This document shows, one piece after another, positions 2,046 to 16,800 of a DNA stretch of 64,000 bases. The DNA lies in the NCBI RefSeq assembly GCF_900099995.1, contig NZ_FNCZ01000001.1:1426001-1490000 (forward strand), read 5' to 3'. The position numbers and the translations under genes are program-made. A model generated the notes under the pieces. That model was given only the letters and a program-made list of their open reading frames with translations, was not told the origin of the DNA and did not search any database. Position 1 is the stretch's first letter. Each line of letters opens with the position of its first letter. Source of the stretch: Winogradskyella thalassocola. GTDB lineage: Bacteria; Bacteroidota; Bacteroidia; Flavobacteriales; Flavobacteriaceae.

Positions 2046-3107
2046 TTAAAAGATATTGAAAATATTAGTTTTCTTTAATATTTTCTCCTTAATTATATGC
2101 TTTGTATAATTTCTATTAGAGTAAACTAAGTATAAACGACTCGTTATAAAAATAGTAGCTAGTTGAATACAATTGATAATAATTCTTAAGGGTTTGAAAG
2201 ACATTTTAATTTTGTGCCAAAAACCTCTATATTTCATGTAATTATTAGAGGTAATATCAGAGAATTCAGGAAAATAATATTTAGCTAACTCTAAATAAGA
2301 TTGACCATATTTGGAATTCATCATATTCTGGATAATATTATTGTCCTTATGTGTTCCTATAGAAAGCAAATCATAAATTGATTTTAAGCTTATTATATTA
2401 TAATAAAGACCTTTATCATTTAGTTGCCAGCTTAATATCAAGTGTTGGCTTAGATAGTGTGTATTAGGAATAGCGATTGTATTTATAATTTTTTTAGAAT
2501 TAAGAATGAATTCCATATTCATTAGTGGCCAATGTGTTTTGTTTAGTAGCTCGGAATGTAGTTCAATTGCAGCTAATTCATTATCTGAGATTAAACGATC
2601 AAGATGTCTAAAATCCTTTTTTTTGTATGCAAAGCCAAATGTTTTGTTATAGCCTGAGTTTTTCAAAATATCAAAAGCATTATGCACTTCTGATTTTTCG
2701 ACTAAAATATCAATATCACCAACCATACGTTCCCCATTATCTTTATAACATCCTGAAACTAGTAACGCAGTACCTTTTAAAAAGACATGATTTATATTGT
2801 TTTGGTTTAAAATATGCGATATAGTATGTACTTGATTGAGTATTCTTAAATTTCTAGACCTATTTATGTTAGTGATTTCTTCTAAGTAACCAATCAATTC
2901 TTCGGGTAATATATGAAGAAGTTGTTTCGCTTTTAATCTACAATATATTGTAGGTAATACTAGGTGTTTGCTACCTTCAATCACTATACTATCCCAATTA
3001 AAAGAAGAGTTACTAATCGTTTTCTCGAGTTTAGAATTTGGAGTGTCAAAACTTAAGATATCTGCAATATGTTGATATGTAGTAGCTAAATTATTCATAG
3101 ACCTCAA
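2046..3107 (-). CDS. nucleotidyltransferase family protein (NTP_transf_5 type)
   Basis: This 353-residue protein fits the uncharacterised nucleotidyltransferase family often called NTP_transf_5. Visible hallmarks are Lys-Gly-Thr at 111-113 and the metal-binding pair Asp131-x-Asp133 in GDIDILV, with a downstream GYN turn near 150. An ATG three codons in is an equally possible start. It is the last gene of a three-gene minus-strand cassette, 22 bases after the HPr-kinase-like gene. In some RiPP (lasso peptide) clusters proteins of this family accompany an HPr-kinase-like enzyme and act on the phosphorylated peptide; applying that here is inference. The C-terminal third (about 280-353) is basic and partly hydrophobic. 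The substrate is unknown. Confidence 0.72.
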   Translation of the reverse strand: MRSMNNLATTYQHIADILSFDTPNSKLEKTISNSSFNWDSIVIEGSKHLVLPTIYCRLKAKQLLHILPEELIGYLEEITNINRSRNLRILNQVHTISHILNQNNINHVFLKGTALLVSGCYKDNGERMVGDIDILVEKSEVHNAFDILKNSGYNKTFGFAYKKKDFRHLDRLISDNELAAIELHSELLNKTHWPLMNMEFILNSKKIINTIAIPNTHYLSQHLILSWQLNDKGLYYNIISLKSIYDLLSIGTHKDNNIIQNMMNSKYGQSYLELAKYYFPEFSDITSNNYMKYRGFWHKIKMSFKPLRIIINCIQLATIFITSRLYLVYSNRNYTKHIIKEKILKKTNIFNIF

Positions 3108-3129
3108 TACAGACTACTAATATAGACTA

Positions 3130-4266
3130 TTAATTTTCGTGATTAAATTGTTTAAATAACGTTGAGATTTTAGAAGACACACTATTAGTATCACTATACG
3201 TTAATTGAAGTAGTTTAGCTTTTTGTAGCCAATCTAAAAATTGCTGAGCATGCTGAGGATTTGGTGATAACCAAGAGTCTTCTATTATGGTTTCTAAAAT
3301 GTGTTTGATAGAAATCGGCTCTATTATGGTGTCTGATTCGGGTTTGTAATTTACTAAAACAATTGCCTGGCATGAATAATGATCGTGTTTTGGTTTTATA
3401 CAAGGCATGTACTTTAATTGACCTTTAGTTTTGTTAAATTCTACTATTGGTAATTCTTCGAAATTCTTTACTAGTGGTTGCAGTAGGTTAAAAGCTCCTT
3501 CTTTAATAGAAATAGATAAAGGATTATAGTATATATGTTGATTTTCAGAGAGCAAAGGAGAAACATCATCAGCTAATAATTCAAAGCCATTTATAGCTAA
3601 TAATGCGGATAACGTACTTTTTCCTTTTCCGGATTTCCCAATAAAAAGGATAGATGAATTACCATCTGTAATAGTTGAACCATGAAGCGTTCCAATCCAA
3701 TCTTGTTCCGTTTTATTATGTAAAGAACAGAGTAGTTGCATGATGAATTTACCTTGTAAAAGATGATATTCTTTTTTAGGAACACAAGACATTAATTCTC
3801 CATTCTTAAAAAGGTATAAGTTATCATTCTTTAAATAAATATCGAATATTACATCGGTTTCAGTTGTGGTTGTTTTACTATAATGTGCAATAGCAGGATG
3901 AACTGTTTTTAGTACTAGCTCAGAGCTGTAATAAATTTGAATATTTTTAGAGCCAAATAAGTAATGCTTAGAAATATTTCGATAAGATATATTTAAAACG
4001 TCCGAACTTTTATTAGGCAGGCTATAAGGAGTATTACAGTCTTTGAGGTAATTATGAATGGTTTCAGAAAGATTTGAGCTATCTGAGTTACAACTATGAT
4101 TTGAAATAGTAGAGGAAAATTCGGTTTGCGTATCGGATGCAAGATAAGAATCCAAAAGTAGCCTAAATTCCGAATTAATAATACTGTAACTATTAGAAAT
4201 GGCATACCACAATACCCAATAGTCACCAAACATTTTTTCATATGTTGGTGCTAATTTAGTATTCAA
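3130..4266 (-). CDS. HPr-kinase-like (HprK-related) protein
   Basis: In this 378-residue protein the second half resembles the HPr kinase/phosphorylase fold. The P-loop GKSGKGKS is at 210-217, preceded by LHGST at 204-208 (the equivalent of the HprK His region) and followed by LLADDVSPL at 230-238, matching the 'LVADD' segment of HprK. The first 120 residues are Ser/Asn-rich and match nothing I recognise; the HprK N-terminal domain is absent. No HPr or other phosphotransferase-system gene is nearby, so sugar regulation is unlikely. The gene lies 15 bases after a 54-residue peptide gene and 22 bases before a nucleotidyltransferase gene. The likely role is ATP-dependent phosphorylation of the peptide or a partner; this is inference by analogy with peptide-modifying kinases of lasso peptide clusters. 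Confidence 0.7.
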   Translation of the reverse strand: MNTKLAPTYEKMFGDYWVLWYAISNSYSIINSEFRLLLDSYLASDTQTEFSSTISNHSCNSDSSNLSETIHNYLKDCNTPYSLPNKSSDVLNISYRNISKHYLFGSKNIQIYYSSELVLKTVHPAIAHYSKTTTTETDVIFDIYLKNDNLYLFKNGELMSCVPKKEYHLLQGKFIMQLLCSLHNKTEQDWIGTLHGSTITDGNSSILFIGKSGKGKSTLSALLAINGFELLADDVSPLLSENQHIYYNPLSISIKEGAFNLLQPLVKNFEELPIVEFNKTKGQLKYMPCIKPKHDHYSCQAIVLVNYKPESDTIIEPISIKHILETIIEDSWLSPNPQHAQQFLDWLQKAKLLQLTYSDTNSVSSKISTLFKQFNHEN

Positions 4267-4281
4267 AATAGAAATAGAAAT

Positions 4282-4446
4282 TTAATCGAATGGGTTTCCA
4301 CCTGGATCAGGAGGTAGAGATTGTGCCTGCGATTTAAGTGGATTTAAAATCACAAATGTTCCTACTGCAGTTATTGCAGCATATTTACCCATTTTTGAAA
4401 TGGCTTCTTTACGAGTGATTTTATCTGAGTTGTTTTCTTGCTTCAT
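4282..4446 (-). CDS. 54-residue secreted-type small peptide, candidate precursor
   Basis: This small gene opens a three-gene minus-strand operon. The peptide has a polar, charged N-terminus (about 1-21) containing RKEAISKMGKYAA, a hydrophobic stretch at about 22-36 and a possible signal-peptidase site at SQA/QS (39-43). A 12-residue Pro/Gly/Asp-rich tail follows, SLPPDPGGNPFD, ending in Asp. Cys is absent. Its stop is 15 bases before the kinase-like gene, so translation is probably coupled. The layout (leader-like part, cleavage site, short tail) looks like a peptide precursor, but no known family is recognised. It could instead be a small envelope protein. The frame is well supported by its codon pattern and tight spacing; the function is not. 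Confidence 0.6.
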   Translation of the reverse strand: MKQENNSDKITRKEAISKMGKYAAITAVGTFVILNPLKSQAQSLPPDPGGNPFD

Positions 4447-5060: not shown

Positions 5061-5093
5061 AACAAAGCGCACCTTTAGAAGGTGCGCTTTGTT
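5061..5093 (-). terminator. intrinsic terminator after the 726-aa T9SS protein gene
   Basis: A perfect inverted repeat has arms AACAAAGCGCACCTT and AAGGTGCGCTTTGTT around a three-base loop. It lies 24 bases past the stop of the minus-strand gene. Confidence 0.88.
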
Positions 5094-5116: not shown

Positions 5117-7297
5117 TTATCTTAAAATTACTTTTTGAGTTTTGTTTTGAGCTGCATTATGCAGTTTTACTACATAGATGCCATTATTTAATTTACTTGC
5201 ATCTATAGCTTGTGATCTAAGATTGGTTTGTAATAACGTTGTGGATATCAAACGTCCTTGAACATCATAAATAGATGCTGTTGTAGGTTCTAATAATTGA
5301 CCAGCAATAACAATGGTATTATCTGCTTTATTGGTGTAAATGTTTAATTCGTCTAAGTTACTATCTAGTGTAGATAATGTGCTATTCGATACGCGTAAGT
5401 AAAAACGCCCCGTTCCATAAAGGTCTGCACTTGGTGTAAGAACGTAATTGCTAGTGTTTAAAAGAGTTGATGTATTATCAACATTGTCTTCTAAATAAAC
5501 GTCTACTGAGCTGGGTAAATTAGTTTCAATGATACTAAAAGTAAGTTGCTCTCCTTGGTTTGCATTTACTCCTAATGGAATTGTAATATCAGTATAGTCC
5601 GTTTTACCAAGGGCCTGCACTGCGAAAGGGACTCCTGTATTTTCTTGAACTAAATGCGAATACAAAGCAAAAGAAGGAGCTACACCTCCTAATAAACTCG
5701 CGTCATAGCCTGGATCTAAATCGAGACTAGAATATTCTGTAAAGAAAATATCAGTTATAAAATTATCAGTAGTTTTATTTAGATTTAACTTTAAATTGGT
5801 AATTGCAGTTGAAGTACTTCTCCCTGTAATAAAATCATCTCCCCCAGAAGCTAAACGCATATCGGTACTGGTTGTAGTAAATTCAATATTACCACCTAAA
5901 CTATTGGAAGCTACAAAAAAGCCCTGACCTGGTGCGATATTTATATCGGTGTTCAATAAAGCACTTATTATGGTGTAATCTCCAGCAGAACTCCCATCTG
6001 TACTGTCGTTATAACCATATATAACAACAGCACTAGGATCTAATAAACTAGCGTTATGCGATAAAAATTCCTGTGCATCTAAGTAAGAAGGAAAAGGGTT
6101 TCCAATTAAGTTTAAGGTACTCTCTGTACCTTGATCAATATAGGTTTGGACCAATCCAGTACTTACCGCACCTTCAAAGGTTACGAGATTACTTAGCGCT
6201 CCTTCTGCAATACCCGAGCGATACCCTTTGCCAGCAGCTAATGGTGTTGTGTCAGTGTCGTTCCAAAGTTCATAAGGACTGGTATTGCTATCATTATCAA
6301 AACGACCAAATAATACTTCAGGTCCTGTAGGATTGGATGTTATGTTAGGGTTGTTAGCTATAAATGTATTAAAAGCTTGTCCAGACAATGGTGCGCTTAT
6401 TAAGTCATTACCATTTACAGAGTCGTTATTGTTTACATGGCGATTATATTTTACAATTCCCGAAATTGTACCATCTGAAATTAAACTTGAATACAGCATT
6501 GAATTAGATTCTAGTGTTAATTCATTTGAAACCGTTAATGTCATTCCTGAATTGACGCGTACATAACCACCAGCTTCTACGATTATTGATTTTACGGTTA
6601 TACTTCCATTAATTTCTAGTGTGGCACCAGATTTCACTGTTATTGCACTATTTAGAAGATTGCCTTGAAGCTTTAAGGTGCCTGTAATAACTGTTGTTGT
6701 GCCAGAGTATGTGTTAGATGCTGTAGTTACGAGCGTATTATTTCCTGTTTTTTGCATATTACCTGTGCCTTGCATGACTCCATTTACAACAATTTCTCCT
6801 GAACCTAAATTCCCGAATTCGACAGTATTACTATTTATGAATATAGTTTGGTCGATTATGAAGCCACCACTAGAATTTGAGTGTATTTGTACGCTAGGAC
6901 CATCAATGCCTATTGGAGTATTTATAGTATGGGTAGCAATTGAAGCATTGTAAATACCTCCTGACACGGATAGTCCTCCGTTGATATTGTTTATAGTTCT
7001 AGCTGAAGTTGCAGCAGATTCAAAATCGAGAGTGTTTACAAGGTAAAAGCGACCATTAGTTGACATGATAGTATTGTTATTATGGCCTATTTTAACGAAA
7101 TTTCTTGTGGTGCTGCCACTGTCAGGATCTCCTTGAGAAATAGTTGAAGTTTCATAATACCATGGTAGTTGGCCATCTCCAAAATTACCTGTAGTAACGT
7201 CACTTCGACTAAAAACATTTTGTTGAGCATATATTTCGCTGCTCATAAAAAACAACGTGAAAAGGGTTAAAATAGAATAGACATGTTTTTTAATCAT
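5117..7297 (-). CDS. T9SS type A sorting domain protein with autotransporter-like beta-strand repeats
   Basis: This 726-residue secreted protein has a signal peptide at 1-25 (ending EIYAQ). Residues about 60-255 are rich in short beta strands and Gly/Asn/Thr. They include a segment of the autotransporter-associated beta-strand type around 179-212 (GTGNMQKTGN, YSGTTTVITGTLKL), pointing to a beta-helix. From about 255 to the end it carries a module shared with the two following proteins (KYNRHV, GNPFPSYL, APGQGFFVAS, DPGYD, SLYSHLV). It ends in the T9SS type A signal (GRLISTTLL, GIYVVKLHNA, final KVILR). It should be exported by Sec, then by the type IX system, and attached to or released from the cell surface. 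Adhesion is a plausible role but not shown. Confidence 0.85.
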   Translation of the reverse strand: MIKKHVYSILTLFTLFFMSSEIYAQQNVFSRSDVTTGNFGDGQLPWYYETSTISQGDPDSGSTTRNFVKIGHNNNTIMSTNGRFYLVNTLDFESAATSARTINNINGGLSVSGGIYNASIATHTINTPIGIDGPSVQIHSNSSGGFIIDQTIFINSNTVEFGNLGSGEIVVNGVMQGTGNMQKTGNNTLVTTASNTYSGTTTVITGTLKLQGNLLNSAITVKSGATLEINGSITVKSIIVEAGGYVRVNSGMTLTVSNELTLESNSMLYSSLISDGTISGIVKYNRHVNNNDSVNGNDLISAPLSGQAFNTFIANNPNITSNPTGPEVLFGRFDNDSNTSPYELWNDTDTTPLAAGKGYRSGIAEGALSNLVTFEGAVSTGLVQTYIDQGTESTLNLIGNPFPSYLDAQEFLSHNASLLDPSAVVIYGYNDSTDGSSAGDYTIISALLNTDINIAPGQGFFVASNSLGGNIEFTTTSTDMRLASGGDDFITGRSTSTAITNLKLNLNKTTDNFITDIFFTEYSSLDLDPGYDASLLGGVAPSFALYSHLVQENTGVPFAVQALGKTDYTDITIPLGVNANQGEQLTFSIIETNLPSSVDVYLEDNVDNTSTLLNTSNYVLTPSADLYGTGRFYLRVSNSTLSTLDSNLDELNIYTNKADNTIVIAGQLLEPTTASIYDVQGRLISTTLLQTNLRSQAIDASKLNNGIYVVKLHNAAQNKTQKVILR

Positions 7298-7477: not shown

Positions 7478-7502
7478 AAAACAGTAAGCTAGTTGTAAGA
7501 TA

Positions 7503-10500
7503 TTATCTTATAATCACTTTTTGAGTTTTGTTTTGAGCCGCATTATGCAGTTTTACAACATAGATGCCAAGACTTAGGTTACTAACGTCTATAGCTTGTG
7601 ATCTAACAGTAGTTTGTAATTGCGTAGTAGATACTAAACGTCCTTGAACATCATAAACAGATGCTGTTGTAGGTTCTAATAATTGACCTGCAATAATAAT
7701 AGTTTTATCCGTCTTGTTAGTGTAAATGTTTAATTGATCTAAGGTGTTATCTACTGTAGATAATGTGCTATTTGAAACACGTAAATAGAATCTGCCTATA
7801 CCACTTAATCCTGTACTTGGTGTTAATACATAATCACTAGTATTTAAAAGCGTAGAGGTGTTAGCCACGTTATCTTCTAAATACACACTAACCGTATTTG
7901 GTAGTGTAGAGGCACTGATACTAAACGTTAGTTGTTCTCCTTGGAAGGCATGAACACCAAGTGGTATTGTAACATCTGTATAATCCGTTTCACCTAGAGA
8001 TTGGATAGCTAATGGTACATTGGTATTATCCATTACCAAATGAGAATATAAAGAAAAATCATTTATTTGGCTTTTAAATAAACTAGAATCATATCCTGGA
8101 TCTAAACTTTGTGTCGCAGATGCTGTAAAATAAATATCGGTAATAAATGACGCACTAGAATTGTTTAGCGTTAATTCTAAATTTGTAATAGAATTAGTAC
8201 TTCTTCCTGAAATAAAATCATCTGATGTTCCTGTCACTCTGTGATCTGGATCAAATGTAACAGATCCTCCTACAGGTATTGATGCTACAAAAAAGCCTTG
8301 ACCAGGTGCAATAACAGCTCCTGCATTTGTAGGGTCTTGTGCTCTGGCTAAATTCCATATATCCCAACCATCTGAAGCTAAACCATCATAACCATAAATT
8401 CCACTACTTGAAAAATCAAATTGAGCAATGTTATCAAGCAAAAATTCTTCTATTTTGAAATAAGAAGGATATGGGTTACCAATTAAATTCCAGTTACTTG
8501 CGGCGGGTGCGACAATACTTTTTGTTACTGTAGCAGTTTCAACAGTACCAGAAAATGTATAAGTATCTTGATTCCCAAGTGACGTAGAGCCTGTTCTATA
8601 GCCATTACCAGCATCAAGAGTTTCAGAATCATCACTTTCACTGTAATAGGTGTACTCATTTAAAGCGGTATTAAATGGACTAAATAGATAAAATATGGTT
8701 CCAGGACTAATGTTGTCAATTTCGCCAGAAAGAATATTTGTATTAGCAATTCTGAAGGCTCCAAAACTCTGACCTGTTAATGGTGGGCTAACTAAATCAT
8801 TAGATCCTGTTCCTTCACCACTCTCTGCAGCATTGTTAATGTGTCTTTGGTAGCTTACAGCACCAGCAACAGTACCATTTAGAATTAAACTAGAATAACT
8901 GTTTGAAACAGATTCTAAAGCTAAGCCGTTAGTTGTTGTAAGTGTAACACCTGTGTCTACAGTAAGGCCCGCACCAGCTTTCACTGTTACGGAATTAGCA
9001 GTAGTGTTGATGTCAATTGTAGCATCTCCTGAAGTAATTACAATATCATCATTAGCAGTAGCTGCTCCATTTGGATCACTTGGTGACCATGTGCCGTTGT
9101 ATGTGTAGGTTGTGGGTGAGGGGCTCACTATTCCCTCAATTTTAAAGTTGTCTACTCCAAAATAGTCGCTTCCTCCATTAAATTTAGCTAGAATTTGTAA
9201 GCTTATAGTATTAGTTCCATCAGGAACATTCATACTTATCGTACCCTCGTTGTTTTGTTGGTCACAGCCATCACATAAAAAGACTTCTGTTTCCGATATA
9301 GTATCTAATGTTATTATATAACTTAGTTCATCTGAAGCACCATTAAAACCATCAACTTCATAATCGAATGATACAGTTATAGAGGTATAGTTGGAAGTAT
9401 CTATGGTGTTAAAATCTATAGTGGCTATACCTGATGTTCCACATCCATTAGAGCCTTCTAAATCTTGCCCGCCAAAAAAATTACCAGTACTATTGGGAAC
9501 TGTGATATTGCCTAAGCTACTTACTACATTCCAAACATCACCACTCGATACACAAGAAGAATTGTTTTCAGAAGGACTAGTTGTATATGTCCATTCTGGC
9601 GTAGTATCATCAAAATCTTGAATAGCAATAATAACAGGATCTACAGGTATGGCTTCAATATCAAAAGCACTACTATTTACAGTTGGATATAAATCATCAT
9701 CAGCAGTTAATACTAATGCAGTGCCTAATGCAGTATGAGTTAAACCTGCAAATGTTACAACACCATTAACAGGAGTTGCTACTAGAGGACTTCCTGTTAA
9801 TGTACCTGTAGAAGTTATTTCTATATCTAAATTATAACTAGTATCTATGTTTCCATTTGTATCAATTGCAGATACAGTGACATCTGGGGTCATGGCTGTA
9901 TTCACAAAGGTATTAGAAGGTTGTTGAGAGAAAACCAGTTCGGTTACATAAACATCTACAATAATATCATTACCAATAACATCACCAGAAAAAGGATCCG
10001 CAAAACCTGAACCACTAGTATTGGCAGCAAAGCCATTTGAAGCAGCATCTATTTGAAATTGAATAATACTTTCATCAACAATGTTTGTTGTATTTAAGTA
10101 AACCCCTAAAGTAAACTCCAAAATAGAATCATCAGCAATGACAATAGGTGTGCTGAACTCTAAAATGATTTCAGTATCGTTTATTGTCGTTGTTGTAGGA
10201 GTGTATGTTGCTGCATTTTCATCAACTAAAGTGATACCTTGGATATGATCTGACCAGTCTGCTGTATTGTTAGCACCTGGAACAAAACGCATCATTGTTA
10301 TATTTGTAGGTAAACCATCTGTAGAACCAAAGTCATAGATGCTAAAAGCAAAAGCATCGAGAGATGTAATACTTGTTGTTGCGTCGGCAGCAATAATTGT
10401 TGTGGTAGCAATTTGTGTATTAGGGTCGGTTGCTTCCGTATCTGCATCTAAAGCAATATCCTCATAGATGTCAATGTTTTGCACTCTCCAGTCTTCCGCG

Positions 10501-13364
10501 CCATTACCAAAATTCATATCGTATTTAAATGCGATATATGCTACTCCTGTAATACCAGAAGCATCAACAGAAGTTACAGAAGGAGAAGATAAGCCTCCAC
10601 CAAATTCTGTATTGTTTGGATCAAATGAAAGTGCTGTCCATGTTGCAATTGTTGGATCTCCACCAGAGTAATCTGTTGAGTATAGTAATTCAAATTCACC
10701 AGGAGTATTTATATTATCTCCATATTGTTCTTGAGTAGTGATATCAATTTTAACGGATGAATAAGCACTAAAATCAATTGAGAAATCTGAAATTAACCAA
10801 TCAACGTTTGTACTTCCATAGCCGTTCATAGCATATTCACCAGAACCACATAACCAAGAGTTACTTCCTGCTTCATCATACGGAGTCCACTCTGCAGCAC
10901 CGCAATCAGAAAAATCTTCACTATAAGGTAATGCAATTGGAGGTGTTACATCATTATTAGTAATAGTAAGTGTAAATGTACTATTTGAACCTGCAACGGC
11001 ATTGTTGCCACCTGATACATTTTGGATTTCAAACATTAAGGTTTCATCAGTCTCTAAATCAGTATCATCTGTAATAGTAAGTGTAACGGTTTGGTTAGTA
11101 CTTGTGCCACCGGGAAATGTTACTGTTTGAGTAGTATATCCATCTATATCTGTAGCGTCACCATCGCCACTTGTAAGTACCACATCAAAACTAGTGGCAG
11201 CAGCATCTTCATTAGTTATTGAAAATTCCAAATCGTAAGTTCCTGCATCTTCAATAACAGTTGCTGTAGAAGCTGTGAATTCAACGAGTGTGTCGGTAGT
11301 CGGAATATCTCCATTAATTTCGATGTCATCCAATACGACACCACGGCCATAATTTCCAGTTGCATCAAATGCAATATAATAATCTGAACTTGGGTTAGGT
11401 AGTAAAACAGATTCTTGTGTCCAAGATCCTATTGAACTAGTGAATTCTTGTCCTGGGATCAGTGTCCAAGTACCACCAGCAGATGTCTTGTAATATACTC
11501 GAAGTTCATCTTGATCTCCACTCCAATCTACTTGAGCATGCCAAAAAGATAATGTTGGAGAAGAAACACCAGTTAAATCTAAAGCAGGAGTGATTAATTT
11601 GGTTTGATCACCATTTGTGTCATAGAAATATGCATTTTTTGTGCCAATATGTGCATCAAGTGAACTGTTACTATTTCCATCTTGGTATGCCCAATTTACT
11701 GTCCCAGTTTCATATTCTTGAGACCAACAAGATGGTAATGCACCACCTTCAAACCCTTCAGTAAAAGGAAATGATGTAATTTTAGCACATAGAGTTGTAA
11801 AACTTCCTGTAAGTTCTGTAAGATTATAACAGGTGTTTGTGTCATTATATTCATATACGGCAAGGTGGTATGTTGTGCCTTGAGATAATCCGTTAATGTT
11901 AAAATCAATAGGATCGCCACCGATTCCTGGGTTAGATCCTTCATTACCATTATATACTGCAAAGTTACCGGTACCTAGTTCATCTGCGCTTAAATCTCCA
12001 AAATTACTATTTGCAGTATAGCTAGTTCCACTAATAGGATCTTCATCTACAGTAGAGCCTTCTTTCATCAAAACTAGAACTTTATCTCCATCACCTCTTG
12101 TAAATTCAATAGAAACTCCTGTTGCAGTAGGTAATAGTGTTGTAAATGCTGAGGCTTGTATTGCTGGAGCAGTACAATCTAATGTCGCATCATCCGCAAC
12201 TGCTGCACTCCAAGATGTAGCTTTTCTTGTAAATACTGAAAAATGGTAAGTGTTTCCATTAGTTAAACCAGTTACAGTTACTGATGTACCAATACCTTTA
12301 TAAACAGCATACTCACTAGTACCTAAATCTGCGCTAGAACCAAAAGTAGCATTAGCGGTGTAAGCAGAACCATCACCTGTTGGTGTAACCGTTACTGCAG
12401 ATGTTTCTTTAGCTATGATTAATACTTCATCATAACAACTACCATTAGACCATGTTAAATCTACCTCTTCGATACCTGCTGTAGCTGTAAATGTATAGAC
12501 TTCAGAAGGTGTCGAACATTCTGTTGTAAAGTTTCCGGTTAACTCGGTTAGCTCATAACACGTATCAATAGTGTTGTATTCATAAACAGCAACATGATAT
12601 GTTGTTGCTTCACTTAAACCAGTAATGCTTACTGAGCTTGTTGCTGAACCTGACTGCACCACATAATTGCCTGTTCCTATTTGGTCTCCAGAAGTAAAAG
12701 TCGTGCTGCCTGTGTAATCAGTTCCACTTTCAGGATCTGTATCAACAGCAGAGCCTTCTTTTACTAGAACCAATACTTCATCTCCATTTCCTGTGGTCCA
12801 GTTTAAGGTTGCAGATGTCGTACCTAAAGCTGTTGTGTTATATAACGACGCTTGAGTTGTAGGTGTTGTACATGTGACTGCAACTCCTGATGCTGTTAAT
12901 TCTAAATTTCTTAATCTTACACCTCTGCCAGAAGTTCCATTGTTAGATATCCTGATTACTACTTGGCTAGAAACACTATTCAGCGTGAATGTACCTCCAT
13001 ATAAATATGAAGAACCAGTTGTTATAGTTGAGGTTTCAGTTTGTGTGTAATTTGAACCGCCATCAAATGATATTTCTATTTTTGCTCGATTATATCCACC
13101 TGAATTAAAAGAAGCTACATCTAGAGTGAATTCTGCATCTGTATATGATGATAAATCATATGTTGCAGTTGTAATAAAATCACTAGTGCTTCCTGCGTCA
13201 ACTAACCAATAACTGCCTTTGTCAATGGGATTTGAAGATATGTTATTTTCAAATGTCCAGTCTGTTGGTTCAGAGCCACCACCACCTTCATTGAAAATTG
13301 TTGTCTGAGTAAACCCAAAACTCCCAATAAATAGAGTCATTAAAAATACGTAAATGTGTTTCAT
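7503..13364 (-). CDS. large multidomain T9SS surface protein (FN3-like, choice-of-anchor J, Calx-beta)
   Basis: A 1953-residue secreted protein. The signal peptide is at 1-20 (ending FGFTQ). Residues about 165-530 hold three fibronectin-III-like repeats (each with LTELTG or VLVKEGS-type strands and TYHVAVYEYN). A choice-of-anchor J/cleaved-adhesin-type domain follows at about 531-690 (FPFTEGFEGG, ending VVLDDIEI), then a Calx-beta domain at 696-800 (TVIEDAG, TDDTDLETDETL) and a second anchor-J-like domain at about 810-975 (YSEDFSDCGAAEW). Further Ig-like and lectin-like stretches run to 1410. Residues about 1480-1953 are the C-terminal module shared with the neighbours, ending in a T9SS type A signal. 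It is probably an adhesin or polysaccharide-binding surface protein; no catalytic domain is recognised. Confidence 0.86.
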   Translation of the reverse strand: MKHIYVFLMTLFIGSFGFTQTTIFNEGGGGSEPTDWTFENNISSNPIDKGSYWLVDAGSTSDFITTATYDLSSYTDAEFTLDVASFNSGGYNRAKIEISFDGGSNYTQTETSTITTGSSYLYGGTFTLNSVSSQVVIRISNNGTSGRGVRLRNLELTASGVAVTCTTPTTQASLYNTTALGTTSATLNWTTGNGDEVLVLVKEGSAVDTDPESGTDYTGSTTFTSGDQIGTGNYVVQSGSATSSVSITGLSEATTYHVAVYEYNTIDTCYELTELTGNFTTECSTPSEVYTFTATAGIEEVDLTWSNGSCYDEVLIIAKETSAVTVTPTGDGSAYTANATFGSSADLGTSEYAVYKGIGTSVTVTGLTNGNTYHFSVFTRKATSWSAAVADDATLDCTAPAIQASAFTTLLPTATGVSIEFTRGDGDKVLVLMKEGSTVDEDPISGTSYTANSNFGDLSADELGTGNFAVYNGNEGSNPGIGGDPIDFNINGLSQGTTYHLAVYEYNDTNTCYNLTELTGSFTTLCAKITSFPFTEGFEGGALPSCWSQEYETGTVNWAYQDGNSNSSLDAHIGTKNAYFYDTNGDQTKLITPALDLTGVSSPTLSFWHAQVDWSGDQDELRVYYKTSAGGTWTLIPGQEFTSSIGSWTQESVLLPNPSSDYYIAFDATGNYGRGVVLDDIEINGDIPTTDTLVEFTASTATVIEDAGTYDLEFSITNEDAAATSFDVVLTSGDGDATDIDGYTTQTVTFPGGTSTNQTVTLTITDDTDLETDETLMFEIQNVSGGNNAVAGSNSTFTLTITNNDVTPPIALPYSEDFSDCGAAEWTPYDEAGSNSWLCGSGEYAMNGYGSTNVDWLISDFSIDFSAYSSVKIDITTQEQYGDNINTPGEFELLYSTDYSGGDPTIATWTALSFDPNNTEFGGGLSSPSVTSVDASGITGVAYIAFKYDMNFGNGAEDWRVQNIDIYEDIALDADTEATDPNTQIATTTIIAADATTSITSLDAFAFSIYDFGSTDGLPTNITMMRFVPGANNTADWSDHIQGITLVDENAATYTPTTTTINDTEIILEFSTPIVIADDSILEFTLGVYLNTTNIVDESIIQFQIDAASNGFAANTSGSGFADPFSGDVIGNDIIVDVYVTELVFSQQPSNTFVNTAMTPDVTVSAIDTNGNIDTSYNLDIEITSTGTLTGSPLVATPVNGVVTFAGLTHTALGTALVLTADDDLYPTVNSSAFDIEAIPVDPVIIAIQDFDDTTPEWTYTTSPSENNSSCVSSGDVWNVVSSLGNITVPNSTGNFFGGQDLEGSNGCGTSGIATIDFNTIDTSNYTSITVSFDYEVDGFNGASDELSYIITLDTISETEVFLCDGCDQQNNEGTISMNVPDGTNTISLQILAKFNGGSDYFGVDNFKIEGIVSPSPTTYTYNGTWSPSDPNGAATANDDIVITSGDATIDINTTANSVTVKAGAGLTVDTGVTLTTTNGLALESVSNSYSSLILNGTVAGAVSYQRHINNAAESGEGTGSNDLVSPPLTGQSFGAFRIANTNILSGEIDNISPGTIFYLFSPFNTALNEYTYYSESDDSETLDAGNGYRTGSTSLGNQDTYTFSGTVETATVTKSIVAPAASNWNLIGNPYPSYFKIEEFLLDNIAQFDFSSSGIYGYDGLASDGWDIWNLARAQDPTNAGAVIAPGQGFFVASIPVGGSVTFDPDHRVTGTSDDFISGRSTNSITNLELTLNNSSASFITDIYFTASATQSLDPGYDSSLFKSQINDFSLYSHLVMDNTNVPLAIQSLGETDYTDVTIPLGVHAFQGEQLTFSISASTLPNTVSVYLEDNVANTSTLLNTSDYVLTPSTGLSGIGRFYLRVSNSTLSTVDNTLDQLNIYTNKTDKTIIIAGQLLEPTTASVYDVQGRLVSTTQLQTTVRSQAIDVSNLSLGIYVVKLHNAAQNKTQKVIIR

Positions 13365-13804: not shown

Positions 13805-16800
13805 TTATCTAATGATAACTTTTTGAGTTCTGTTGCCAGTTGTATTTTGTAACTGTACAACGTAGATGCCAGCAGTAAGATTAGAAGCGTCAATACTATG
13901 CTCTGTATTATCAGCATTTAGTGATTGTGTTGTTACTAATCTCCCTTGGATATCAAACAATTTAAATGCTGTTTGGCCTTCTAACTGTCCTTTTACAACA
14001 ATTGATTTAGGGTTTGCATTTACAAAAATTTCTAAACCATTTAATAAATTGTCATTTACACCAAGTGTCGTTTGTCCAAAATGTAAATAGAAACGACCAG
14101 TGTTGTTTAACGTAGTCGCAGAAATAAACGTGTAGTCACCTTCTAATAGATTCGTAAATGAATTGGCTACATTATCTTCTAAAATTACAGTAGTCCCTTC
14201 AGGAATATTATGTTCTGCAATACTAACGACACCTTGTTCACCTTGTGCAATATTAATTCCTAAAGGAATTGTTACATTGCTTAAGGCAGAATAGCTAACA
14301 GCTTGTGCTGCTAAGTTTCTTCCTGTGTTATCTTCTACAAGACGAGAATAGATTGAGAAGGCAGGAGCAATAGCTTCAAACATTTCAGAATCGTAACCAG
14401 GGTCCATACTTAATGATGCATTATCATTAAAGTATAATGCCGTTTGGTAAGCCCCATTTCCTTTAGCAACTTGAATATTTAAATGTGCTAAATTCTGATT
14501 TTCAGCTCTACCACTAATAAAATCATCAGTTGTTCCTATTCTTCGCATTTCTGGTGTGAATTGTATTGTAGCTCCATCAGATTTTGAGGCTACAAAAAAT
14601 CCTTGTCCTGGTGCAATACGTGCTGTAGGATTGGCATCCGAGTACGCTTGGTTCCATATAGTATATCCTGTTAAAACATCACCTTTATAACCATATACTC
14701 CAGAATTTGAAGCGCTGAATTTAGTGCCATTACTTGCTAAAAAGCTAGAAAGGCTTAAATAAGATGGGTAAGGGTTTCCTATAAGATTAAATGTACTTAG
14801 AGCACCTGCTGTAATAGGAACAGATACAAATCCTGTTTTAACATCACCAACAAATTCAAAAGTAGAACCTGTAGGAGTGTTTGAAGCTGTTCTATAACCA
14901 ATTCCAGATGTAATTACGTTTGAGTAATCAGATGGAGTATAGTTAATAAAGTCATTTAAAGTGTTATTATCAAAAGGACCAAATAGAAATGCAGGATCAC
15001 CACCAATGGTACCAGAAGGAATATCTGCATTAGCTGTTACTAAGGCAAGAAATGTTTGACTTGAATTCGTAACTGGGGCAGAAATTAAATCATTAGCACC
15101 AGTTGTAGAACCTGAGCTTGCAAATTGATTCACGTGACGGTTATAAGTTACTTCTCCAGTAATGTTATCTGTAATTAAACTAGAGTATGATGTTGAAACC
15201 GAATTTAACTCTAATGTTCCATAATTTGCAACTGCAGAATTGGTTTTAAGAGATTTTCCAGAGGCAATATTTACTTTAGCGTTTTCATTAATAATGAAGT
15301 TGTTGATTTCAACTTGAGCGGGTACTATATATTCACCGCTAATAACGTACGCATTGTTCGCGCCAGTAGTGTTGCTCGGAGTTCCACCTTTCCAACCCGC
15401 GAAGGTTCCATTGTCTATATGAATAAAACCATCAAACACACTAGTTATTTTAAAATTGTCAAAACCAGTAAAGCCATTTGTATCATTTCTATTTTTAACA
15501 CTGATTTCTAAAGCTACAGTACTTACAGAACTTGGAATACTAATAGTAACTGTACCTTCATCAGTGTCAATAGCTCCATTACCATCTACTAGATAAACTA
15601 AAGGCTCAGCTACACCATCATAAATCAACGTGTAACTTGCATCACTATCATCGTTTTCATAACCATGTACATCCCAATCAAATGATAAGGTCACATTCTC
15701 TAAGGCACTAATATTAATAGTTTCAAAAGTCATTACTGCAAAATCAGCTGTTCCATTGTCTCCTTCGTCATTAATATCGTTTTCTCCAAAAATATTACCA
15801 GAGAAAGAAGGATTATCTAATGGAGACGCAATTGCACTATCAATTATTCCGTAATAACCATCAATTCCCCAACTATTATCAAAAGTGTCAACGTTAGTTG
15901 AATAAGTCCATTCTGGTGTAGTGCCATCAAAATCTTGATTGGCAACAGTGATTAATGGTCCGGTAATGTCAAAATTGTTACTTACTGCAGGTAAAGGACT
16001 ATATACTATCATAGCCGCAACAAGTTGTTTCTCTGTAAATATGACATTGTCTAAAACAGCCAATCCATTTGTCATCGTATAAAAACTAGGACTAGGGTCC
16101 ATAGTACCCGTTGCTGTAAGAGAAATAGAAGAGTTGTAATCAAGATCTTGGCTACCATTACTATCTACAGCTAAAACTGTTGGGAAAGGTGTCATGATTT
16201 CAAACTGGTTTGTATCTGTAGGTTGTTGGTCAAAAGCCATCGCCGTTGCAGTAACCTCTATTCTGTTATCATCACCAGATATTGATGTTAAAGCTCCGCC
16301 TGCATCAAACGCTTCGAAGGTAGATCCAATAAAAGGATCTGCTGTTGCAGATGTAACAGTTAGTTGAAATTGCTCGTTGTCATTTACATTAGTATTAAAA
16401 GTTGCATAAACATCAAAAGTTTTTGAACCACCGTCTGTTGTAGAAAGTCCTGATATACCTGTAAATGATGCAGATCCAGATGCTACTGTTGCTTCCGATA
16501 TGTTAGTAGCTTCATCAAAAATAGCTAAAGTCTTAAGGTTCTCACTATTTGAAATCCCAAATTCAAGATCTGTTAAAATTGTACCAAGAATATCGCCATC
16601 AGTTAAATCATCTCCACCATCCAAAATTACAAACTCACCAACTTTTATGGCATTAGCAGTAGTTAAACCAGATGCTACAGAATAAGCGCTGTAGTTAATA
16701 TTATCACTTGGATCAAAAGCTGTCGCTTTTATATTTGATTCTGTGCTATTAAAAGTAACACTTGTTATAGTTCCTATAAGTCTTAAGCCTGGAGTTGCTA

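Follow-up and report, generated by a model that had tools for sequence, protein, structure and literature searches.

The window analyzed here is a 64,000-nucleotide (64-kb) stretch of the Winogradskyella thalassocola genome (contig NZ_FNCZ01000001.1, positions 1,426,001 to 1,490,000), and its subject is a set of three minus-strand genes encoding a 54-residue precursor peptide (4282 to 4446), a 378-residue HprK-like kinase with a TTG start (3130 to 4266), and a nucleotidyltransferase (NTase) of the NTP_transf_5 type (2046 to 3098). A first-pass annotation had proposed these genes as a peptide-modifying cassette, and we found all three where it had placed them, with the motifs GKSGKGKS and LLADD in the kinase and GDIDILV in the NTase. 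It had also given the intergenic gaps as 15 and 22 bases; the first figure is right, and the second becomes 31 bases if the NTase starts not at the TTG at 3107 that opens its reading frame but at the ATG at 3098, which is likelier because the ortholog in locus L031 begins with MGKLAITYQHIADIL. What it overlooked is the main partner of the cassette: directly upstream from the peptide gene, on the same strand, lie genes for cargo proteins of the type IX secretion system (T9SS). The first encodes a type A cargo protein of 726 residues (5117 to 7297) and the second a type A cargo protein of 1,953 residues with MAM and Calx-beta domains (7503 to 13364); these two exceed the cut-off of 23 for the TIGR04183 sorting domain, with 40.2 and 39.7 bits. 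Both match a shared C-terminal module of about 260 residues, which we named C3C, and a third T9SS cargo gene (1,183 residues) carries the module at 13808 to 14581.

Comparison with other genomes showed that the cassette is conserved as a unit. Named genomes were scanned for relatives of the peptide, and the 80 best of the 350 found were retained as 79 loci, mainly from the close relatives Winogradskyella and Psychroserpens; 64 of the 79 preserve the order cargo, peptide, kinase, NTase with all four genes on the same strand, and a C3C cargo gene stood immediately upstream from the peptide gene in 74. The three-gene unit that the first-pass annotation had read from a single sequence therefore recurs in relatives, the peptide being conserved beside both enzyme genes. 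Among 397 Flavobacteriaceae genomes, kinase matches were found in 37 (36 after G246 was set aside, a weak match that sits inside a lasso cluster) and peptide profile matches in 42 (40 without the two weak ones in G355 and G372). The peptide was present in 35 of the 36 kinase genomes compared with 5 of the 361 others (Fisher 1e-43), and in the sole kinase genome lacking it, G048, the kinase match begins at base 30 of its contig, which leaves the upstream side out of view. These genome searches scored limited numbers of first-look candidates in each genome (at most 4 for the kinase, 15 for the peptide, 6 for C3C, and 7 in the order-level sample), and the absences are incomplete to that extent. 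In the subset examined, 7 of 10 kinase genomes had a match to PF14907, the family of the NTase, against none of 12 others. The peptide itself is under purifying selection (mean pS 0.57, pN 0.097; 20 codons, 84 matches). In a phylum sample that was drawn largely from Flavobacteriaceae and covers the distribution outside that family poorly, the peptide occurred in 5 of 395 genomes, all Flavobacteriaceae, and in an order sample the kinase was matched at an E value of 1e-10 in 12 of 271 genomes, two of which belong to another family; four of the matches were weak. Our results identify a real, conserved system, probably a variant of the phosphopeptide kind among ribosomally synthesized and posttranslationally modified peptides (RiPPs), with an unexpected partner in the T9SS.

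The pairing with T9SS cargo extends to sites at which the enzymes are not adjacent. Nineteen peptide genes lack a kinase gene immediately after them; 3 of these lie at contig ends, and 12 of the other 16 directly follow a C3C gene. Six of these 12 are in genome G320, on contigs other than the one that carries the kinase. Such pairing at kinase-free sites points to more than inheritance of one locus. In the W. thalassocola genome, the C3C module gave 82 matches in all, 11 of them at E values of at most 1.1e-78 and the next at 2.9e-22. Scores of at least 140 bits were reached in 34 of the 36 kinase genomes versus 4 of the 361 others; these four genomes are 76 to 89% complete and two of them carry the peptide, while the two kinase genomes under the line are 86 to 87% complete, one scoring 114 bits and the other, G067, giving no hit. 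By these sequence matches, strong C3C modules appear to be nearly confined to cassette genomes, and we consider a functional link of the cassette to the T9SS likely. The modified peptide might alternatively be part of exopolysaccharide or capsule production, as a phosphoglycosylated primer or regulator, with the T9SS link reflecting a shared neighborhood of surface genes. Consistent with this, 15 of 37 loci (window included) are near genes of cluster C5, C12, or C14, of which C5 is a sugar epimerase (by Pfam, from the gene in the window) and C12 and C14 look by eye like a dehydrogenase and a flippase; clusters for linear polyphosphorylated peptides (LPP) are located in capsule loci (PMC13381572), and distant HprK-like kinases adjoin NTase-like genes in the capsule-type loci L232 to L234. 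The unlinked peptides, however, keep their C3C neighbor in the 12 of 16 cases mentioned above, in which the adjoining gene is in view, and we regard a role in polysaccharide production as unlikely.

A nearly invariant serine of the peptide is its probable site of modification. The leader, ITRKEA..KMGKYAA.TA.GTF.ILNP, is followed by AQA-x-S and a short tail of the PPDPGGNPFD type; the serine of this junction, Ser43 (codon at 4318 to 4320), is kept in 126 of 128 distinct rows and is Thr in none. One exception is a Tyr in G283, a genome in which neither kinase nor NTase was matched; the other comes from G315, where a frameshift splits the gene, the row being its upstream piece and the Ser still being present in the downstream one. 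P36 is invariant (128 of 128 rows), and GKYAA.TA.GT shows conservation at the level of identity, which we infer to exceed the needs of a plain signal peptide. No further Ser follows Ser43 in 97 of the 126 rows. Tails have a median length of 10 residues and vary in both length and sequence, with fair conservation in the residues that follow Ser43. In the LPP pathway, the kinase LppK phosphorylates core residue S3 but none of the variants S3A, S3T, and S3Y (PMC13381572). By analogy with that precedent, Ser43 is likely to be the phosphorylation target of the kinase in this cassette. The first-pass annotation had the two enzymes modifying the tail of the peptide: that they modify the peptide still seems likely, with the target shifting to the invariant Ser43 at the boundary of leader and core, away from the variable tail. 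The peptide has no match in Pfam or NCBIfam at an E value of 1. A Tat signal is unsupported, as the invariant Arg is followed by K, N, Q, or T and never by a second R. The flavobacterial promoter pattern TTG-N17-23-TANNTTTG has no match upstream from the peptide gene on its strand, and a sigma-70 scan found sites no commoner than in shuffled sequences. Long extra tails, for example with proline/glycine/lysine repeats or a DIWN-like ending, were seen in the peptides of L038, L044, L033, and L042.

Genomes that carry the peptide without the kinase provide a contrast. There are five of these, and PF14907 was found in 0 of the 5. The peptide has decayed in three: in G283 (89% complete) by the change from Ser to Tyr, MGKY there being preceded by no ATG, GTG, or TTG start, in G295 (92% complete) by internal stops, and in G315 (92% complete) by a frameshift. 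A lost start argues weakly for decay, because one of the two copies in G275 is also without a standard start; the peptides of G275 and G136 (82 to 84% complete) keep Ser43. Decay of the peptide where kinase and PF14907 are unseen argues that peptide, kinase, and NTase are tied into one function, and these genomes constitute a ready genetic contrast. They also bear on the possibility that the peptide is an unmodified partner of the cargo, such as a chaperone or membrane anchor, and that the kinase and NTase modify something else, for example, a sugar or the cargo. The occurrence of peptide-cargo pairs without the enzymes at many sites would fit such a role; the state of the five peptide-only genomes and the near invariance of Ser43, which Thr never replaces, speak against it, and we judge it improbable. 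A second copy of the peptide, decayed by an internal stop, was seen near 7480 to 7740 of L112; the genome concerned, G197, has an intact cassette as well.

Both enzymes have invariant residues, and they match known families with very different strength. The NTase scores 101.1 bits against PF14907, over the gathering cut-off of 31.2, while the kinase stays under the cut-offs of HprK-type families (PF07475, 18.6 bits where 33.3 are needed; TIGR04352, HprK-related kinase A, 54.5 where 200 are needed), scores by which a canonical HPr kinase is ruled out. A His-Lys-Asp-Asp (HKDD) set has been reported for lasso kinases (PMC9266682), and by our own residue matching H195, K216, D233, and D234 would correspond to it; with L066 (a lasso cluster) and short fragments left out of the counts, all four are present in 32 of 32 kinases. 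K216 lies in the Walker A motif GKSGKGKS (residues 210 to 217; 3616 to 3639), and D233-D234 end the LLADD motif (3565 to 3570). In the NTase, K111, G112, D131, D133, and D246 are kept in 30 of 30 sequences, D131 and D133 belonging to the GDID metal site (2709 to 2720; GDIDILV, residues 130 to 136).

The structure model of the kinase (pLDDT 91.3) resembles the PEPCK and HprK folds over residues 82 to 378, the part chiefly covered by the whole-kinase comparison. Residues 1 to 94 were modeled alone (pLDDT 87.0), which gave three strands and then three helices (E9-13, E16-21, E26-31, H32-43, H47-55, H63-77); the first eight ranks of a Foldseek search with this N-terminus were lasso B1 proteins, a cyanobactin oxidase, and a sactipeptide enzyme, all at weak E values (0.15 to 1.3). 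VIA gave Z 7.5 and rmsd 2.7 with 77 aligned for TbiB1 and Z 5.7 for the lasso B1 protein 6jx3, the first unrelated row having 4.7. A RiPP recognition element (RRE) is thus probably fused to the kinase as its N-terminal domain (residues 1 to 80; 4027 to 4266), as judged from the predicted fold. The first-pass annotation had noted that no PqqD-like protein is encoded here; this holds for stand-alone PqqD, of which none was found, and needs amending for the RRE-like domain that seems to be part of the kinase.

A canonical lasso cluster from the same family (L066, 2258 to 9993; HprK-like kinase, Asn synthase, PqqD, transglutaminase-type B2, NTP_transf_5, and ABC transporter) supplied queries that were run on the whole window and 114 cassette loci, 115 sequences in all, at an E value of 1e-5 for the ABC transporter. 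The PqqD, B2, and ABC transporter queries matched 0 of the 115; the cyclase query had no match in the 64-kb window and one elsewhere (L156, 24.9% identical). For machinery of the lasso type, this bears out the earlier remark that a lasso cyclase, leader peptidase, and transporter are absent. The kinase query matched 21 of the 115 and the NTase query 5, and the cassette kinase and NTase are only locally similar to their L066 counterparts. In the W. thalassocola genome, PF13471 (B2 leader peptidase) had 0 matches and stand-alone PF05402 (PqqD) had none at an E value of 0.001; with neither family in the genome and no cyclase in the window, a lasso peptide is ruled out. An antibacterial or signaling RiPP with an incidental T9SS neighborhood would accord with the distant relationship of the kinase and NTase to lasso tailoring enzymes (PMC9266682). 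Against it stand the empty search for the lasso-cluster ABC transporter, the adjacency to cargo at independent sites, and the fairly conserved residues after Ser43, compared with the variable C termini of LPP (PMC13381572), and we consider such a function very unlikely. By eye, a further lasso-like cluster is present in L235 (7840 to 12022), from another family of the order, with a weak HprK-like kinase, a 94-residue PqqD-looking protein, and a 50-residue precursor-like open reading frame.

One of the closest known parallels is provided by LPP, which have been described as restricted to Bacillota (PMC13381572). Both systems have a short precursor with a conserved N-terminal leader, an HprK-like kinase, and an NTP transferase, have no macrolactam cyclase, and are often near polysaccharide loci; in both, a Ser lies just past the leader, namely, the phosphorylated S3 of AQS... 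in LPP and the proposed target in AQxxS here. LPP clusters encode a discrete RRE, a SpI-like peptidase, and an MsbA-like exporter, and their precursors have the motif YxxPxVLxHQ (PMC13381572). Here, by contrast, the RRE-like predicted fold is fused to the kinase (the PF05402 and PqqD queries being empty), the lasso-cluster ABC query found nothing in the 115 loci, YxxPxVLxHQ occurs in 0 of the 128 distinct peptide rows, and the cassette is paired with T9SS cargo. Paeninodin and pseudomycoidin (PadeK, PsmK, PsmN) likewise involve an HprK-type Ser kinase with HKDD and, for pseudomycoidin, an NTase (PMC9266682, PMC8498205); unlike them, the present system has no cyclase in the 64-kb window and no B2 or stand-alone PqqD in the genome, and its proposed Ser is not C-terminal. 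PsmK phosphorylates Ser, and PsmN has been linked to the presence of one or two hexoses on the phosphate, its own role as a glycosyltransferase being left open (PMC9266682, PMC8498205), while deletion of LppN left the products unchanged in a heterologous host (PMC13381572).

We favor, with moderate confidence, the interpretation that the cassette is a RiPP-like peptide modification system serving T9SS surface proteins, a Bacteroidota variant of the LPP and pseudomycoidin pathways. The conserved leader of the 54-residue precursor would be bound by the kinase, probably via the fused RRE-like domain, the kinase would phosphorylate Ser43, and the NTase would place a nucleotidyl or sugar group on the Ser43 phosphate; these three steps are inferred by precedent from LPP and pseudomycoidin, and action of the NTase on phosphorylated Ser43 seems somewhat probable. 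From the sequence alone, the leader might then be cut near A-x-A and a peptide of about 12 residues exported by housekeeping machinery. Adjacency and co-occurrence suggest that the mature peptide may finally act with the C3C-bearing T9SS cargo.

How it might do so can be considered in the light of Porphyromonas gingivalis, in which PorU joins T9SS cargo to a seryl sugar (SAGA) of lipopolysaccharide (PMC13086638). The two situations share T9SS cargo and a serine-bearing surface conjugate, and 8 of 8 cassette genomes that were checked had a match above the cut-off of the PorU sortase family; they differ in that the available part of the P. gingivalis account (PMC13086638) has no such peptide gene, HprK-like kinase, or NTase, and an anchoring link here is speculation. 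By this analogy, the matured Ser43-phospho(glyco)peptide could serve as a gene-encoded acceptor or anchor to which PorU joins C3C proteins instead of to SAGA, an idea that we consider doubtful; the ratio of one peptide to 11 C3C hits in this genome is neutral on it. Judged from listings of the open-licence literature, no report of RiPP-style peptide modification linked to the T9SS was found. If the favored interpretation is true, RiPP-style modification of a peptide serves the T9SS, and a biological role is suggested for the kinase/NTase pair, none being known for its paeninodin and LPP products (PMC13381572); what Flavobacteriaceae attach C3C-class T9SS proteins to would also become testable.

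Several observations weigh against this interpretation. The set of 79 loci represents the top 80 among 350 matches, drawn largely from close relatives. Four of the 16 unlinked peptides (L097, L100, L106, and L109) do not follow a C3C gene; the same holds for the decayed copies of L110 and L112, which were not recovered as open reading frames. Cargo and peptide genes in the window are about 670 bases apart, and the interval contains a strong 15-pair hairpin (5061 to 5093), a likely terminator; the gap elsewhere can be 6 to 40 bases, and hairpin and distance together make cotranscription of cargo and peptide improbable in this strain. This genome has 11 strong C3C hits and a single peptide. The C3C model was built from cassette-adjacent proteins, which makes its presence there partly a matter of construction and leaves its rarity elsewhere as the sole test; the threshold of 140 bits was chosen with the data already in view, scores below it continue from 127 down to 109 bits in genomes without the cassette, and at most six candidates per genome were scored. 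PF14907 was unmatched in 3 of the 10 kinase genomes (G067, G151, and G371, which are fragmentary, with kinase contigs under 5 kb). In L231, from another family, a C3C cargo gene is followed by kinase and NTase with no peptide in between; in L236, kinase and NTase are adjoined by neither peptide nor C3C gene; and the pairs of L232 to L234 show no small peptide, so that kinase/NTase-like pairs are not always tied to one. As to the RRE-like domain, Foldseek gave no match at an E value of 0.001 (best, 0.15), the VIA Z values are below 8, and a sequence link to PqqD was rejected after hhalign detected no similarity between the kinase N-terminus and a single PqqD sequence (probability 0.2).

Other genes were seen around the cassette and around related enzymes. 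An outer-membrane beta-barrel protein is encoded on the minus strand at 1220 to 1792, next after the NTase gene; such a gene occupies this place in many Winogradskyella, Psychroserpens, and Gelidibacter loci and not in the most divergent ones, and its membership of the unit is uncertain. A PF00483 sugar nucleotidyltransferase gene begins about 5 bases after the kinase gene in L056 (6546 to 9585) and L057 (1270 to 3310), and L056 also has an APH phosphotransferase; that the PF00483 enzyme replaces the NTase was ruled out, since both genomes have PF14907 elsewhere. The capsule-type loci mentioned above (L232, 7455 to 10584; L233, 3892 to 7025; L234, 5884 to 9019) contain, by eye, an NTase-like gene of about 200 codons, immediately after it a weak HprK-like kinase, and then a flippase-like gene. 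Near the kinase/NTase pair of G320 (L055, 657 to 6591), a PorP/SprF-looking gene and a gene for a very large secreted protein were recognized by eye.

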